Assembly (NCBI RefSeq): GCF_014207985.1
Contig: NZ_JACHMI010000001.1
Coordinates: 9,159,001-9,223,000 of the forward strand
From: Nonomuraea rubra
GTDB taxonomy: Bacteria; Actinomycetota; Actinomycetes; Streptosporangiales; Streptosporangiaceae
DNA: 64,000 bases
Direction of reading: 5' to 3'
The notes beneath the pieces are model-generated. The model made no database searches. It saw only the letters and a program-made list of their open reading frames with translations, and was not told the origin of the DNA. Position 1 is the stretch's first letter. The number at the start of each line of letters is the position of its first letter. Below are positions 57,735-64,000 of the stretch, one piece after another. Position numbers and translations under genes: made by a program.

Positions 57735-58796
57735 TTACGGCTGCGGGTCGGGGGCGAGGGGCGGGCCGTCGGGGAGGCCGGCGGGGTCGCGCCAGGTGGC
57801 CAGGAACCGCTCGGCCACCGCGCTCGACCCGGCGAACGGCCCGTCCGGATGCTCCAGCGCCTCGGCGGTGAGCCGGGCGATCCGCTCCTCCACGACGGCG
57901 CGCGCCGAGGCGGCGTCGCGGACCCGGCCGGTGCGGTCGGCGAGGTAGCCGATGGTGGCGCCGGCGCCGCAGACGAAGTCCGCCAGCGTGACCACGCCCC
58001 GCTCCCGCAGCGTGCGCAGCCCCGCCGCCGTGTAGGGCACGTTCGCCGCCGGGGCGATCAGGCCGGCGCGCACCCGGGAGGCCCGCTCGGCGGTCAGCGT
58101 CCCGGTGCGCGCGCCGGGCACGAGCACGTCGGCGGCCACCTCGTACAGTGCCTCCGGCGGGAGCACGGGCAGCCCGAGCCGGCCCACGCAGGCGTCGCCG
58201 TGCTCGGCACGCAGCCGTGCCAGCCGGTCCACGTCGAGCCCCGCCGGGTCGGCGACGCAGCCGTACAGGGTGGACAGCGCGACGACCCGCCCGCCACGCA
58301 GCGCGGCCTCGCGGACGACGGCGCCGCCCACCTTGCCGAACCCCTCCACCGCCAGCGTCCGCCCCGCCAGCCCGCCCAGTGCGGTCTCCGCCGCGACCAC
58401 CACGCCCAGGCCGGTCACGATCGTGTCCACCAGCTCGCCGCCGACCTCCTGGTGCATCAGCGAGTCGGCGCGGTAGTCGGGCAGCGAGGCGAAGTCCTGC
58501 GTGCGGGTGCCCAGGTCAGAGGCGGTGAGGAACTCGCCCTTCTCGATCAGCGGGGTGATCTCCTCGCAGTAGCGCGCCAGGGTGACCTCGCGCTCCGCGT
58601 CCGTGGCCCGCAGCACCGCCTTGGCCCCGCCGATCCGCTCCCCCAGCACGGCCAGCTTGTACGTCATCGCCCGCGCCAGCAGCCCCGCCTCACCGGGGGT
58701 GACGTCAGGGGCGAGCCGCGTACCGCCCGCACTCGTCGGGCAGTCGAGGTCGAAGGCGACGTAACCGTCCACGGAGACGAGCTCCACGATCCTCAT
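57735..58796 (-). CDS. Glu/Leu/Phe/Val dehydrogenase family protein
   Basis: A 353-residue amino-acid dehydrogenase-like protein. N-terminal substrate domain: VAFDLDCPTSAGGTRLAPDVT, then KLAVLGERIGGAKAVL with the catalytic-type lysines (TYK; GGAK). C-terminal NAD domain: GRTLAVEGFGKVGGAVVREA. Length is like leucine/valine dehydrogenases (about 350), and the usual glycine-rich substrate loop is changed to STSAGG-like PTSAGG. ATG 58796 with GAGGGG upstream. Substrate uncertain. Convergent with the MFS gene, 14 bp apart. Confidence 0.83.
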   Translation of the reverse strand: MRIVELVSVDGYVAFDLDCPTSAGGTRLAPDVTPGEAGLLARAMTYKLAVLGERIGGAKAVLRATDAEREVTLARYCEEITPLIEKGEFLTASDLGTRTQDFASLPDYRADSLMHQEVGGELVDTIVTGLGVVVAAETALGGLAGRTLAVEGFGKVGGAVVREAALRGGRVVALSTLYGCVADPAGLDVDRLARLRAEHGDACVGRLGLPVLPPEALYEVAADVLVPGARTGTLTAERASRVRAGLIAPAANVPYTAAGLRTLRERGVVTLADFVCGAGATIGYLADRTGRVRDAASARAVVEERIARLTAEALEHPDGPFAGSSAVAERFLATWRDPAGLPDGPPLAPDPQP

Positions 58797-59008
58797 GCGC
58801 ACCCCTCATCCCCGGCCCGATACCGCGAATATCGGCGAGACGCGGCCGTAGGTCAAGGTCCATTGCGGATCACCGCCGGGAACCCCGGGGCCCGCTGCTG
58901 GGATCTTGCCCTTTGTAGTGGCTGTGTAGGAACTCTCTGGCGGCCGCTCACATGCTTGATCGCAGCGGGCGCCACCAGCGCGCCCCCGGAAGAACCAGGG
59001 AGATCCCT
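58797..59008. promoter_or_regulatory. Promoter region of the peptide cassette
   Basis: A 212-bp spacer between the divergent dehydrogenase and the peptide gene. A promoter-like TTGCCC (58906-58911) with TAGGAA 15 bp further (58927-58932) points toward the peptide; it is not a consensus pair. The leader ends with GGGAG 6-7 nt before ATG 59009. Confidence 0.4.
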
Positions 59009-59086
59009 ATGGTCAAGACCGCCCGTCGCTACGCGAAGTACGCCATCAGCACCCTCTCCACCGCCATCTTCGTGCTGAACGGCTGA
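59009..59086 (+). CDS. 25-residue precursor-like peptide
   Basis: Begins MVKTARRYAKYAI and ends FVLNG. The N-terminal half is basic (KxxRRxxK), the second half hydrophobic with Ser/Thr, a shape like a membrane-inserted peptide or a small signal/pheromone precursor. A GGGAG ribosome site lies at the right distance. A strong hairpin follows 14 bp after the stop, then the ligase gene. Position and size are those of a product peptide followed by its processing enzymes; a C-terminal Gly (after Asn) is a natural adenylation target. No known family. Confidence 0.65.
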   Translation: MVKTARRYAKYAISTLSTAIFVLNG

Positions 59087-59100
59087 CGAGGACGAGTGAA

Positions 59101-59125
59101 CCCCCGGGAGGGTGTCTCCCGGGGG
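59101..59125 (+). terminator. Perfect 10-bp hairpin between peptide and ligase genes
   Basis: CCCCCGGGAG-GGTGT-CTCCCGGGGG. It lies 14 bp after the peptide stop and 25 bp before the ligase start, on the same strand. Such a hairpin usually lowers read-through so that the short upstream gene is made in excess of the downstream enzymes. Confidence 0.75.
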
Positions 59126-59150
59126 ACACCCACGACCGGAGGGACGAGGC

Positions 59151-60551
59151 GTGTTCGGGACCGCGGTACGCCAGCTTGGCTACGCCTGGTCGATGATGTC
59201 GGGGCGCAGGTTCCGCTTGCGGGACGTGAACGCGCTGGTCGACGACATGCGGGAGACCCTGGAGACGTTCGGCTCGCCCGGTGAGGGAGCCGACGACCTG
59301 CTCGCGGGCAACGACCCCGAGCTGCAGGAGGACCTCACCCGGCGGCGGCTGCGGCGCACGGTGCGGCACGCGGCGGCCGAGAGCCCCTACTACCGGCACC
59401 GGTTCGCGGCGACCGGGGTGGACCCCGCCTCGATCACGCCGCACACCCTGGCCTCGATCGCCCCCACCACCAAGGCCGACCTGCGCGGCCGGCCCGCGGC
59501 CTTCGTCTCCGACCGGGCGAAGCCGGCCGTGCTGGCGCACACCACGGGCACGACGGGGACGCCGACGCTCGTCTGGTTCTCCGCGTACGAGATCGAGCTG
59601 ATGTCGGCGCTGTCGGCGCTCGCGCTCATGATGGCCGGCAACCTGCGCTCCGACGACGTGTGGGCCAACGCGATCAGCTCCCGCTCCATCGCGCAGATCC
59701 TCACCGAGCGGGCCGTCACCCGTACCGGGGCGGCGTTCGCGCACCTGGGCGCCATCGACCCGGCGGCGACGCTCGACCGGCTGGCGACGCCGCTGCACGT
59801 ACCCGGCAAGCGCCCGCAGATCACCCACCTGAACCTGACCGCCTCCTACCTCGCGGCGCTCGTCCAGGAGGCCGACCGGGGCGGCTGGAAGGCCGGCGAC
59901 TTCGCCCTCACCACGATCTGGTCCGGCGGCGAGGTGCTCACGGACGCGCTGCGCGAGCGGGCGGAGCAGGTGTTCGGCGCGGAGGTCCGCGACGGCTACT
60001 CCATGACCGAGATCGCGCCCGTCTCCGGCCGGGTCTGCCCCGGCGGTCACCTCCACCTGCCGCCCGACCAGGGCCTGATCGAGATACTCGACCCCGTCAC
60101 GCTGGCCCCGGCCGCTCCCGGGGAGATCGGCACGATCGTGGTGACGCCGTACTCGACGTTCCGCGACACCACGCTCCTGCTCAGGCACGTCACCGGCGAC
60201 CTGGTCAGGACCCTGCCCGAGGGCCAGACCCCCACCTGCGCGCTGGCCGCGCTGCCCGCCACCTCCCGCGTGCTCGGCCGCAGGTCGCCCGGCGGGCTCA
60301 CCACGCGGGACGTGCTCGACCTGCTGCAGGCCGAGCACGCGCTGCCGCTGCCCACCCGGTACGCGCTGGACGGCGAGCTGCTCTACGTGGTGGCGGGCAA
60401 GCACGACCCCGGCCTGCTCGGGCGGCTGGAGGAGCGGGCGCACGGGCTGCCGCTGACCGGCATCGTCCTGGTCGAGACCGCCGAGGACCTGCCCGCGCCC
60501 TGCCGGCTCCGCGCCGACCTGCTGGAGCTCAGCTTCGAGCGAGGACTGTGA
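59151..60551 (+). CDS. PaaK-like adenylate-forming enzyme (phenylacetate-CoA ligase family)
   Basis: A 466-residue ANL-superfamily enzyme. ATP loop HTTGTTGTPTLVWFS (residues 130-144), GYSMTEIAPV (A5-type) and the adenylate-closing VTGDLVRTLPEG (A7) are present, with the N-terminal region (YYRHRFAATGVDP) of the PaaK/CapK group. It would activate a carboxylate as AMP ester, with CoA or another nucleophile as acceptor. GTG 59151 has GGAGGG at 59138. The stop overlaps the protease start by one base (TGATG). Whether it adenylates the peptide or a small acid cannot be told. Confidence 0.85.
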   Translation: MFGTAVRQLGYAWSMMSGRRFRLRDVNALVDDMRETLETFGSPGEGADDLLAGNDPELQEDLTRRRLRRTVRHAAAESPYYRHRFAATGVDPASITPHTLASIAPTTKADLRGRPAAFVSDRAKPAVLAHTTGTTGTPTLVWFSAYEIELMSALSALALMMAGNLRSDDVWANAISSRSIAQILTERAVTRTGAAFAHLGAIDPAATLDRLATPLHVPGKRPQITHLNLTASYLAALVQEADRGGWKAGDFALTTIWSGGEVLTDALRERAEQVFGAEVRDGYSMTEIAPVSGRVCPGGHLHLPPDQGLIEILDPVTLAPAAPGEIGTIVVTPYSTFRDTTLLLRHVTGDLVRTLPEGQTPTCALAALPATSRVLGRRSPGGLTTRDVLDLLQAEHALPLPTRYALDGELLYVVAGKHDPGLLGRLEERAHGLPLTGIVLVETAEDLPAPCRLRADLLELSFERGL

Positions 60552-61522
60552 TGACCCCGAACGTCCTGGCGCTGTACGCGCTCGTCGCCCTGACCGTCGC
60601 GCTCGCCGCCGGCTACCTGGGCCGTTACGTCATCCCCCGCCCGCCGGTCGGCCGGATGGTCGGGGCGGACATCGCGGTCATGGTGACCGCGCTCGTCGTG
60701 ATGCCGTTCGCGTACCTGCACGTGCCCGTCGGGGTCGTGGTGTCCGTCTTCGGGCTGGTCGTCATGACGCTGACGCAGCTCATGCTGGCGCCCGTGCTGG
60801 GCGGCCGGTGGGCGATGATCGCGGCGCCGGCGCTGTGCGCGGCCGACGTCGCCGCGTACGCCGCCGGATGGCCGCTCGCGCTGCTCGTCGTCAACGACGC
60901 GCTGCTGATCCTGCTCGTGGTCGGCGTGGTGAACCTGTGGGCACAGGCGGCCGTCACGCCCGCGCAGGTGGCCGCCCTGGCGGCGGCGCTCACCGTGTAC
61001 GACACCCTGGCCACCGGGCTCAGCTCGCTCACCGTCGACTTCGTGCAGCGCATGCAGGGGCTGCCGTTCTCGCCCGTGCTGGCCACCTCCTACGGCGCGA
61101 ACCCGTCGCTGATCGGGCTCGGCGACTGCCTGATGTTGTCGATCTGGCCGGTCGTGGCGCTGCGGGCGTACGGGAAGGTGGCCGCGTGGTCGGCGGCGGG
61201 GCTGGAGGCCGTGCTGCTGGCCGTGTCCATCGCCTTCGTCCTCACCGGCGGCCGGCCGATGCCGCTGCTGACCGTGCTCGGGCCGCTGATCTTCGTACAG
61301 TGGCTGTACTGGCGGCGGTGGCAGGCCAGCAGGACGCCGGCGCCGACCCGGCCCGAGGTGAACCGGGCGCTGGAGCTCGCGGACGCGCCCGCCGGGGTGT
61401 GGGTCGCGCTGTCACCGGCGGGCGCACCGGTCGCCGAGGGCGCCACGCCGGGGCTGGCGCGCCGGGAGGCGCGGCTGGCCGGAGCCCAGGGCTCACCCGT
61501 GGTCTGGCGCCTCCAGGAGTAA
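60551..61522 (+). CDS. GxGD-type intramembrane aspartyl protease (presenilin/SPP-like)
   Basis: A 323-residue protein with about eight or nine hydrophobic helices. Two helices carry the diagnostic aspartates: LTVYD (Y150-D151) and IGLGD (G189-L190-G191-D192), 41 residues apart, the YD/GxGD pair of presenilin and signal peptide peptidase proteases. A degenerate PAL-like MPLL...GPL lies near residues 237-246. The remaining C-terminal 65 residues are cytoplasmic and charged. It is translationally coupled to the ligase, and its natural substrate would be a single-span peptide such as the one encoded first in the cassette. Confidence 0.7.
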   Translation: MTPNVLALYALVALTVALAAGYLGRYVIPRPPVGRMVGADIAVMVTALVVMPFAYLHVPVGVVVSVFGLVVMTLTQLMLAPVLGGRWAMIAAPALCAADVAAYAAGWPLALLVVNDALLILLVVGVVNLWAQAAVTPAQVAALAAALTVYDTLATGLSSLTVDFVQRMQGLPFSPVLATSYGANPSLIGLGDCLMLSIWPVVALRAYGKVAAWSAAGLEAVLLAVSIAFVLTGGRPMPLLTVLGPLIFVQWLYWRRWQASRTPAPTRPEVNRALELADAPAGVWVALSPAGAPVAEGATPGLARREARLAGAQGSPVVWRLQE

Positions 61523-61578: not shown

Positions 61579-64000
61579 TCACTCCGCCAGGTACTTCGCC
61601 ACCTGCCTGGCCTCTGCCGCGTCGCCGAACAGGGCGAGGGAGCCGCGCCACGCCGCCGCGGACTCCTCGGGGCGGCCCAGCAGGGCGTGGGCGCGGCCGA
61701 GCTCCTTGAGCGTGCGGGCCCGCCACACCTGGGGGCCGTCGGCGCCGAGCCGTTCCAGCGCGGACCGCAGCAGCCCCAGTGCCTGGCCGGCGTCACCCTG
61801 GCGCAGGCGGACGACGCCCAGGGCGTGCCCGGCCAGCGCCTCGCCGAGCGTGTCGCCGCACTCCACGAACAGCCGCAGGCTCGCCACCAGCGTCTCGGCC
61901 GCCTCGTCGAAGCGGCCCAGCGCGCCCAGCGCCTCGCCGAGGCGGCGCAGCACCTTGCTCATCTCGCCCCGGTCGCCGGCGGCCTGCGCGGTCAGCAGGC
62001 TCTCCCGGTAGCACTCGACGGCCTCCGCCGTCTCCCCCTGCTGGTAGAGGGCGGTGCCGAGGGCACGCAGCAGGTTGCCGCGGATGGTGTGGTCCTCGTC
62101 GCTGGTCACCTCCACCCGCGCCCTGGCGATCTCCTCGGCGCGGGCGTGCTCGCCCCGCTCGATGTGGATCCAGACGGGCCAGGTCCACGCGTACTCCAGG
62201 CCGGCGGTGTCGGCGCGGGCGGCCAGCAGGTCGATCGAGGCGTACGCGTCGGCCAGGGCCTCGTCGAGCCGGCCCATCCCGTGGCGGGCGGCGGCCCTGC
62301 TGATCAGCGCGTACGCGGCGCCGTGCGGGTCGCCGGCGCGGCCGAGGTCGGCCAGCAGCCCGGCGCACTCCGCCTCGCCGCGCTCGTAGCGGCCCCGCTC
62401 GATGTGCACCGCGGCCAGCAGGAGCCGGGCCCGCAGCGTGGCGCACCCGTCGCCCATCCCGATCACGATCCGCTGCACCTGCTCGGCGTCGTCCAGGAAG
62501 CGGTCCATGAGCAGGTAGCCGGTGAGGTGGTGGGCCAGCTCCGCGGCGGCGGCCACCAGGCCCAGCTCGGCCGCCGTGGTGAGGGCGAGCATCAGCGTGC
62601 GCCGCTCGGCCGCCAGCCACGCCGCATTCGCCCGCACGCCGTCCCTGGACCGCGGCACGCTCGCCCGCACGTCCTCCACGGACCGCGGCACGCTCACCGG
62701 CAGGTCGTCCGCCGGGCGCGGTGCGGTTCCGTGCACGCCGGGGGCCGCTTCCGGCTCGCGCGGGTACGGCGGGGACAGGGGGATGGGCATGTGGCGGGTC
62801 GCGGCCCTGGTGCGGCGCAGGCATTCCAGCACGTGCCTGGTCAGCGCCTCGCGCCGGCGAGCCGGGGACTCCTCCGCCTCGGCCCGTTCGCGCGCGTACA
62901 CCCTGAGCAGGTCGTGCAGCCGGTAGCGGGGCTGCCCGGCGCCGTCCACCTCCGTCGAGGTGAGCATCCCTCGCGCGACCAGCGTCTCCAGCGCCGCATC
63001 CGCCTCCAGCCCATGCGCCACCGCCACCACCCCCGTCCCCGGGCCGGCTGTCTCCGGCGGTGGCGGGCCGAGCAGGGCGGCGACCGACCACTCGGCGACG
63101 CTGTCCAGCCCCGCCAGGCCCAGCAGCCGGAACGCGTGGCGGGCCGATTCCGGCAGCGCCGCGTAGCTCGGCTCGAACGTGGCCCGCACGTCCAGCCCGC
63201 CGACGACCAGCTCGTCCAGCCCGCGCCCGGCCAGACGGGTGGCGAACTCGCTGACCGGCCACACGGGGCGGGTGGCCAGGCGGGCGCCCGCGACCCGGAT
63301 GGCCAGCGGGAGGCGTCCGCAGGAGCGCAGGATCTGCTCGGCCGCGCCGGGTGCCATGCCGATGCGGTCGGGGCCCGCCACGTGTTCGAGCAGCTTCCTG
63401 GCGTCCTGCTCGCCGGGGAGGTCGAGCGTGAGACGTACGGCGCCCTCCAGGGCGGGCAGCCGCGAGCGGGAGGTCACCAGGACGGCGCCGCGCGGAGTGC
63501 CGGGCAGGAGGTGGCGGAGCTGGGCCTCCTCGACCGCCTCGTCCAGCACGACGAGCACCGCCCGGTCGGCCAGCCGCTGGCGCAGCAGGCGGGCGCGCTC
63601 CTCGGCCGTGGCCGGGATGGCCGCGCCGTCCAGGCCGAGGGAGCGGAGCAGCATGTCGAGCAGTTCGCCCGGCTCGCGGGGGCCGCGTTCGTCCTGGCCG
63701 AGCCGGACGAAGAGCTGCCCGTCGGGGTAGTCGGAGCGCAGCAGGTGGGCCAGGTGCACGGCGAGTGTCGTCTTGCCGATGCCGGGCAGCCCGGACACGA
63801 TCACGATGGGCGGGCTGAGCCGGTCCTCCCCCGACCGCAGCAAGGCCGTCAGCTCGGCGATCTCCGCTTCGCGCCCGACGAAGTCCGCGGTGTCGGCGGG
63901 CAACTGGCACAACCGCCGTAACGCCGCGGGCATCGCGGGCCAGGGCCCCACCTCCTCCACCCCATCCGGCAACGGCTGCGGCTCGGGCGGCGCACCGGGC
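61579..64000 (-). CDS. AfsR-like NB-ARC/TPR regulator, N-terminus outside window
   Basis: The frame is open to the window end, so the gene is 5'-truncated; 807 residues are visible. FVGREAEIAEL and the NB-ARC P-loop SGLPGIGKTTLAVHLA lie near the visible N-terminus, followed by VLVVLDEA (Walker B), LVTSRSR, and a C-terminal row of TPR repeats (ALGTALYQQGETAEAVECYRESL type). The preceding QLPADTADFVGRE linker matches SARP-AfsR proteins, so a DNA-binding domain probably lies outside. Around residues 440-475 (counted from 63972) is a short 11-residue duplication (VSVPRSVEDVR, ASVPRSRDGVR). It converges with the protease gene (56 bp); a role in the peptide system is possible but unproven. Confidence 0.87.
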   Translation of the reverse strand, partial: PGAPPEPQPLPDGVEEVGPWPAMPAALRRLCQLPADTADFVGREAEIAELTALLRSGEDRLSPPIVIVSGLPGIGKTTLAVHLAHLLRSDYPDGQLFVRLGQDERGPREPGELLDMLLRSLGLDGAAIPATAEERARLLRQRLADRAVLVVLDEAVEEAQLRHLLPGTPRGAVLVTSRSRLPALEGAVRLTLDLPGEQDARKLLEHVAGPDRIGMAPGAAEQILRSCGRLPLAIRVAGARLATRPVWPVSEFATRLAGRGLDELVVGGLDVRATFEPSYAALPESARHAFRLLGLAGLDSVAEWSVAALLGPPPPETAGPGTGVVAVAHGLEADAALETLVARGMLTSTEVDGAGQPRYRLHDLLRVYARERAEAEESPARRREALTRHVLECLRRTRAATRHMPIPLSPPYPREPEAAPGVHGTAPRPADDLPVSVPRSVEDVRASVPRSRDGVRANAAWLAAERRTLMLALTTAAELGLVAAAAELAHHLTGYLLMDRFLDDAEQVQRIVIGMGDGCATLRARLLLAAVHIERGRYERGEAECAGLLADLGRAGDPHGAAYALISRAAARHGMGRLDEALADAYASIDLLAARADTAGLEYAWTWPVWIHIERGEHARAEEIARARVEVTSDEDHTIRGNLLRALGTALYQQGETAEAVECYRESLLTAQAAGDRGEMSKVLRRLGEALGALGRFDEAAETLVASLRLFVECGDTLGEALAGHALGVVRLRQGDAGQALGLLRSALERLGADGPQVWRARTLKELGRAHALLGRPEESAAAWRGSLALFGDAAEARQVAKYLAE

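Follow-up and report, generated by a model that had tools for sequence, protein, structure and literature searches.

A three-gene actinomycete cassette linking a short hydrophobic peptide to a presenilin-fold membrane protein and a PaaK-related ANL protein: a putative peptide-processing system

Actinomycetes of the genera Nonomuraea and Streptomyces carry a compact gene cassette, which encodes a short hydrophobic peptide, a PaaK-related protein of the ANL superfamily and a membrane protein with a predicted presenilin/signal peptide peptidase (SPP) fold. The cassette described here lies in a window, that is, the whole stretch of 64,000 nucleotides that was analysed, within the 12.88-Mb genome of Nonomuraea rubra. 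With a probability of roughly 0.6, we propose that the three genes form one dedicated peptide-processing cassette, in which a membrane peptide would be cleaved and acted on by the ANL protein to give a small product under the control of a SARP regulator. The cassette is new as a system, each of its parts is of a known fold or family, and its function is putative. A search of the open-access literature (PubMed Central, judged by the title and the start of the abstract) found no description of the trio or of an actinomycete presenilin-type family. If the proposal is true, the ancient presenilin protease family gains a natural and testable bacterial substrate. Moreover, the cassette would then represent a way of maturing peptides that lies beyond the known enzyme sets, with an ANL branch that does without the catalytic lysine.

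Organisation of the cassette

The features of the cassette are listed in Table 1. The layout and coordinates given in a preliminary description of this DNA were confirmed: a 25-residue open reading frame with a ribosome site of its own is followed after a spacer of 64 bp by the ANL gene, whose TGA overlaps the ATG of the membrane protein gene by one base. If the alternative in-frame GTG at position 60548 were used, the overlap would be four bases. The stop-start overlap of the two enzyme genes was also present in 10 of the 12 other loci in which it was measured, the exceptions being L021 and L022. By eye, a purine-rich stretch precedes the peptide start in the 20 loci compared. Six spacers of less than 40 bases between the peptide and the ANL gene were disregarded because the ligase starts had been mis-set. 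The cassette is adjoined by a divergent gene for a Glu/Leu/Phe/Val dehydrogenase (57735-58802, minus strand), which was grouped at five loci only, so that local synteny is the probable reason for its presence.

Table 1 Features of the cassette and its surroundings in the N. rubra window
Feature	Position	Strand	Remarks
TGTAG-N6-TGTAG direct repeat, candidate SARP operator	58914..58929	+	11-bp period; exact match
Ribosome site of the peptide gene, AGGGAG	58997..59002	+	Read from the sequence
Peptide gene, 25 codons	59009..59086	+	ATG 59009, TGA 59084-59086; product MVKTARRYAKYAISTLSTAIFVLNG, basic-then-hydrophobic, putative substrate
GC-rich hairpin	59100..59126	+	Directly 3' of the peptide gene; no T run in the window; may act as a partial terminator or stabilise the mRNA
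PaaK-related ANL-superfamily protein, 466 aa	59151..60551	+	GTG start after GGAGGG; TGA 60549-60551; no conserved A10 lysine
Presenilin/SPP-fold GxGD protein, putative intramembrane aspartyl protease, 323 aa	60551..61522	+	ATG 60551, stop 61520-61522; nine predicted membrane helices and a small soluble C-terminal domain
YD motif codons (Y150-D151, helix 6)	60998..61003	+	D151 unchanged throughout both alignments (86 sequences; 44 diverse sequences)
GLGD motif codons (G189-D192, start of helix 7)	61115..61126	+	G189, G191 and D192 unchanged throughout both alignments (86 and 44 sequences)
AfsR-type SARP regulator (Trans_reg_C, BTAD, NB-ARC, TPR)	61579..64000	-	Convergent; runs past the window end; probable cassette regulator

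Occurrence and linkage of the three genes

The peptide, the ANL protein and the membrane protein are encoded together in all 25 loci from Nonomuraea and Streptomyces that were counted as intact. The preliminary description had named as evidence against its reading a ligase/protease pair usually found apart from each other; instead, the pair accompanies the peptide in each of these loci, and three remnants lack the peptide. When the first 59 genomes were searched with the membrane protein, 11 were matched, including the genome of the window itself. The ten other genomes contributed 11 loci, ten of which have a matching short open reading frame 5' of the ANL gene, while the eleventh (L023) is a remnant made up of ligase and membrane gene. 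Among 150 Streptomyces genomes, the genus being assigned from an 87% match to a Streptomyces plasmid protein, nine were matched by a Streptomyces homologue of the membrane protein. Four of these matches are cassettes (L046-L049) and three represent a second subfamily (L051-L053) with membrane proteins that share about 34% identity with the Streptomyces query; L050 is a fragment only. The last match, in genome G434 (L054), was taken as chance, as it reached an E value of 5.7e-4 with no ligase or membrane match by tblastn. Cassettes were also found on two records of linear Streptomyces plasmids, L033 (NZ_CP108387) and L034 (NZ_CP109493), and the cassette can thus be mobile.

The remnants, found in genomes G024 (L023) and G449 (L050) and in N. 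gerenzanensis (L035, NZ_LT559118), were counted as decayed and stand outside the 25 loci. The intact set includes L016 and L049, where the membrane protein match is split into two pieces at its C-terminal end, and L024, whose contig ends inside the membrane gene. The remnants L023 and L035 still adjoin a homologue of the SARP gene. The Nonomuraea genome G026 carries two diverged cassettes with different peptides (L020 and L022), whose membrane proteins are 60% and 46% identical to that of the window.

Searches across the class gave few matches, namely in 2 of 394 genomes with query A1 and in 5 of 296 genomes with query P0059. In each search one match was the genome of the window, and the others were weak (E 1.7e-5 to 7e-4). 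The homologue searches, which scored the 8000 best candidates, are consistent with linkage: judged by eye, more than 20 sources seem to be common to the lists obtained with the membrane protein and the ANL protein, one of which was represented by its best 120 of 187 entries.

The short peptide

A profile built from 12 peptides matched 16 places at E values of at most 3.5e-10, spread over 15 of the 54 Nonomuraea genomes searched, and the next-best match had an E value of 0.065. Eleven of these places are loci already known, and the remaining five, once retrieved, all had the ANL and the membrane gene behind the peptide. Taken together, the ANL gene lies 3' of the peptide at 16 of 16 places and the membrane gene at 15 of 16, the contig-end locus L024 accounting for the difference. 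At strong E values, the 54 genomes contained no orphan peptide. The uncorrected pN/pS ratio, based on 18 of the 25 peptides, was 0.37 among nine Nonomuraea sequences, 0.40 among six and 0.18 among three from Streptomyces, and on these comparisons the peptide coding sequence is under purifying selection. The profile places, the ANL gene behind each of them and the pN/pS ratios argue that the short reading frame is not a product of chance. It is conserved in the relatives examined, which removes the objection, anticipated in the preliminary description, that no such frame would be found there.

The alignment of all 25 peptides, in which the second subfamily was placed by hand, gives the core consensus [YQ]-x-[KR]-[YF]-[AV]-x-[SG]-[TA]-[LM]-[STA]-[TSA]-[AVT]-x-F. 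The Phe that closes the core is present in 25 of 25 peptides, and Ser/Thr residues lie within the hydrophobic part. For instance, the Streptomyces peptide at L046-L049 reads MVKHYxKYAxSTLxAxMF and that of the second subfamily MSAIKxxAKQFKYVxGAMTAVFF. A search for conserved C-terminal residues, as had been suggested, led to the opposite picture: the conserved core stops at the invariant Phe, and the tail of 3 to 6 residues beyond it is the most variable part, which differs even among close relatives (IFVLNG versus IFVLQV). The tails at L051-L053 contain a Cys (TCSAS or SCSAS). Judged by eye, the hydrophobic stretch comprises only about 12-17 residues, and the peptide may therefore not span the membrane.

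The membrane protein

On the predicted structure, the membrane protein almost certainly has the fold and the catalytic dyad of the presenilin/SPP type. The model contains nine membrane helices in a presenilin fold. SPPL2a, presenilin or archaeal presenilin homologue (PSH) structures account for all of its 23 best fold matches, and Foldseek is in agreement. Identity to these structures is 12-20% in the 23 family rows of the fold comparison. The YD and GLGD aspartates noted earlier from a single sequence turned out to be invariant, both in an alignment of 86 of the 97 homologues and in a separate set of 44 sequences chosen for diversity. D151 is preceded by Y150 in at least 90% of the 44 sequences and lies on a helix formed by residues 137-157; G189, G191 and D192 lead into the next helix of the model (190-207). 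In addition, P245 is invariant and occurs in the last helix as [LF]GP. With this predicted fold and the invariant aspartates, a non-protease membrane protein devoid of the YD and GxGD motifs, the other counter-case raised in the preliminary description, was not what was found.

The protein shares the predicted fold and the YD/GxGD motifs with the A22-type GxGD proteases human SPPL2a, presenilin-1 and the archaeal PSH MCMJR1. However, it is bacterial, differs in sequence to the extent given above, has xGP in place of PAL, carries an additional soluble segment at the C-terminus in subfamily 1 and is genetically linked to a candidate substrate. The A22 models of Pfam matched none of the 86 members at an E value of 1, and PF06550 gave no match in the N. 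rubra genome or in any of 296 genomes from the phylum. A profile search of PDB sequences with the 86 members did not retrieve presenilin, and the relationship was seen by fold comparison only. Pfam, NCBIfam and PADLOC yielded weak and implausible matches or none for the membrane protein and the peptide, and those relatives of the membrane protein that carry a source name in the homologue lists are all labelled hypothetical or uncharacterised. The C-terminal piece (61352-61522 in the window) is a small soluble alpha/beta domain in subfamily 1 and is not aligned in subfamily 2 or at L022. An assignment of this piece to DUF5678 was not built on, since the matches were weak and confined to 19 of the 86 members (best E 2.9e-4), with P0059 below the family cut-off.

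The PaaK-related ANL protein

The second gene encodes a protein with an AMP-binding domain (PF00501, 2.9e-15), whose closest sequence relatives of known structure are PaaK enzymes. The family profile matched 4r1l with an E value of 9.1e-34 and AjiA1 with 3.6e-20, the latter being aligned over positions 61 to 388, and the Pfam, NCBIfam and PADLOC models recorded for the protein are AMP-binding and PaaK-like. The claim that the ATP motifs are complete is incorrect on one point. The P-loop TTGTTGTPT, A5 (MTE), A7 (TGD) and the A8 Arg are all kept, and among 38 chosen sequences T132-G133-T134, T286-E287 and D350 are invariant, G349 is found in at least 90% and R377 (A8) in 35. The A10 lysine, however, is not conserved: with the A10 region itself located by eye, Lys occurs in fewer than 40% of the 38 sequences, which cover both subfamilies, at every alignment column beyond residue 220. 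The sole invariant Lys among these sequences is K108, and in the C-terminal part R386, R403, R454 and E459 are the charged residues that do not vary.

The A10 Lys is described as a key catalytic residue that is highly conserved in aryl-CoA ligases (PMC8388817). Its absence as a conserved residue makes ordinary adenylation doubtful and weakens the earlier claim that the ligase activates a carboxylate, and we do not class the protein as a working CoA ligase. The PaaK-family enzymes AjiA1 and NatL2 act in benzoxazole pathways and are reported to do so without domain alternation (PMC8388817). The cassette protein resembles the PaaK family in the profile match and in the P-loop, A5, A7 and A8 motifs, but differs in having no conserved A10 lysine, in a divergent C-terminal domain and in its coupling to the peptide and the membrane protein. 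By analogy with AjiA1 and NatL2, the joining of an acyl group to an amine or a hydroxyl is a possible activity.

Proposed mechanism and alternatives

In the proposed mechanism, the peptide would insert into the membrane with its basic N-terminus inside, and the presenilin/SPP-fold protease of the cassette would cut or trim it inside the hydrophobic segment, which is rich in Ser/Thr. The PaaK-related protein, which is taken as cytosolic, would then act on the peptide or on the released fragment, for example by attaching an acyl group or by converting the new C-terminus to an activated form. The end product would be a small and possibly modified peptide, perhaps a signal, subject to AfsR-type SARP control in most Nonomuraea copies. 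The steps differ in strength. Cleavage of the cassette peptide by the protease is well motivated and probable. A dedicated enzyme-substrate unit is the best supported reading, since the peptide resembles a bare signal peptide, proteases of this fold cut inside membrane segments and the genes of the two enzymes mostly overlap. Whether the ANL relative acts on the peptide or its fragment is evenly balanced, and a signalling role of the product is put forward tentatively. Beyond the trio, the neighbour families recurring in both genera are one group of STAND proteins and some groupings that are short or due to chance, so that the grouped neighbours offer no evident exporter or receptor. The physiological substrates of the archaeal homologue MCMJR1 were described as unknown in 2010 (PMC2947513); here a candidate substrate, the peptide, is encoded in the same cassette, which allows a direct test of whether a small presenilin relative cleaves it.

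The protease could also free the variable tail together with a few core residues as a species-specific signal, as in the enterococcal pheromone systems, with the rest of the peptide serving as a leader and the ANL protein confined to an accessory task, for instance capping or self-protection. This outcome is unlikely, although several observations speak for it. The tail is the most variable part of the peptide, also among close relatives, one genome (G026) has two diverged cassettes with different peptides, and signal-peptide-like precursors processed by an intramembrane protease are likewise found among the Eep-dependent pheromone and inhibitor peptides. In the enterococcal plasmid pCF10, prgQ encodes an inhibitor precursor. 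A terminator that the transcript passes separates the prgQ start from the remainder of the operon (PMC7117660), an arrangement that recalls the hairpin of the cassette. However, Eep is a site-2 type metalloprotease encoded elsewhere, whereas the protease linked to the cassette has an aspartyl-type presenilin/SPP fold. Moreover, a receptor or importer family is not evident among the grouped neighbours, and the ANL partner that is present in all intact loci would be left unexplained; to our knowledge, no ANL partner exists in Eep-type systems.

A variant of the processing mechanism starts from the carboxypeptidase-like trimming reported for archaeal PSH (PMC9282858). The protease might trim the tail back to the invariant Phe, and the PaaK relative, akin to phenylacetate-binding enzymes, might join this aromatic C-terminal carboxylate to another molecule without the A10 lysine. 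The dedicated substrate of 22-29 residues would thereby become a C-terminally conjugated actinomycete signal sensed by the AfsR-type regulator. We regard this joint reading as quite unlikely.

It is improbable that the peptide stays uncut and serves the protease or the ANL protein as a small subunit with a regulatory or structural role. The long conserved core and the strict co-occurrence would suit such a subunit, and membrane enzymes commonly have small single-span partners, but a signal-peptide-like peptide next to a presenilin-fold protein fits a substrate better and the variable tail would be odd. A toxin/immunity unit, in which a membrane-active peptide toxin is inactivated or matured by the protease and the ANL relative, is very improbable. 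The size and composition of the peptide do resemble those of small membrane-acting peptides, and remnants persist in some genomes (L023, L035 and L050). However, no antitoxin was recognised, the three proteins had no PADLOC match, and region 58800-59200 had no Rfam match above the cut-off.

Regulation of the cassette

Returning to the processing cassette, we infer that an AfsR-type SARP probably regulates it in most Nonomuraea copies. The SARP gene of the window encodes Trans_reg_C (PF00486, 2.2e-10) and BTAD (PF03704, 6.9e-36) domains and an NB-ARC domain (PF00931, 1.7e-12). By BLAST, a homologue adjoins 14 of the 16 Nonomuraea cassettes; L022 lacks it and the contig of L024 ends before the site. 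It was not grouped at eight of the nine Streptomyces loci, and the gene grouped at the ninth (L049) encodes a STAND protein. SARP sites consist of direct repeats with a spacing of 11 or 22 bp (PMC10936776). The TGTAG-N6-TGTAG repeat upstream of the peptide gene has no second exact match in the window; when one mismatch is tolerated, 0.39 matches are expected and at least one occurred in 31 of 100 shuffles. Chains of TGTAG-like pentamers spaced by 11 bp precede the peptide in 13 of the 16 Nonomuraea loci, each of them reached by at most 1 of 500 shuffles, with variants such as TGTAT/TGTAA at L018 and TGTGG at L079. No such repeats were found upstream of the peptide at L021, L022 and L078. The arrangement resembles AfsR/afsS of Streptomyces, where afsS encodes a small protein. 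AfsR, a SARP with NOD and TPR, has the same architecture, and 11-bp direct repeats lie upstream of the small open reading frame (PMC10936776), but in the case described here the repeat sequence is TGTAG and the target is the cassette.

The hairpin was examined in 20 of the 25 intact loci. It starts 6 to 18 bases past the peptide stop in 18 loci and has a stem of at least 10 pairs in 19, the exception being L020 with only 7 pairs. In ten of the loci it beats all of 100 shuffles and in the other ten it does not. The stem sequences differ among the three peptide groups, and on visual inspection no long T run accompanies the hairpins, with a short one at L052. The hairpin could hold the peptide mRNA above the enzyme mRNA. 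It is hardly credible that the short frame is an attenuation leader for enzymes acting on something else, with the hairpin as attenuator: the stems behind it would suit this role, but an amino-acid sequence rather than a single-codon run is conserved (pN/pS 0.18-0.40), the core residues persist across divergent genera and long T runs are missing. One Rfam match below the cut-off, to a mammalian element, was taken as chance. In subfamily 2, an IclR-type gene (PF09339, 3.6e-10) lies divergently at L053; the neighbour at L052 falls outside the group of this gene and that at L051 within it.
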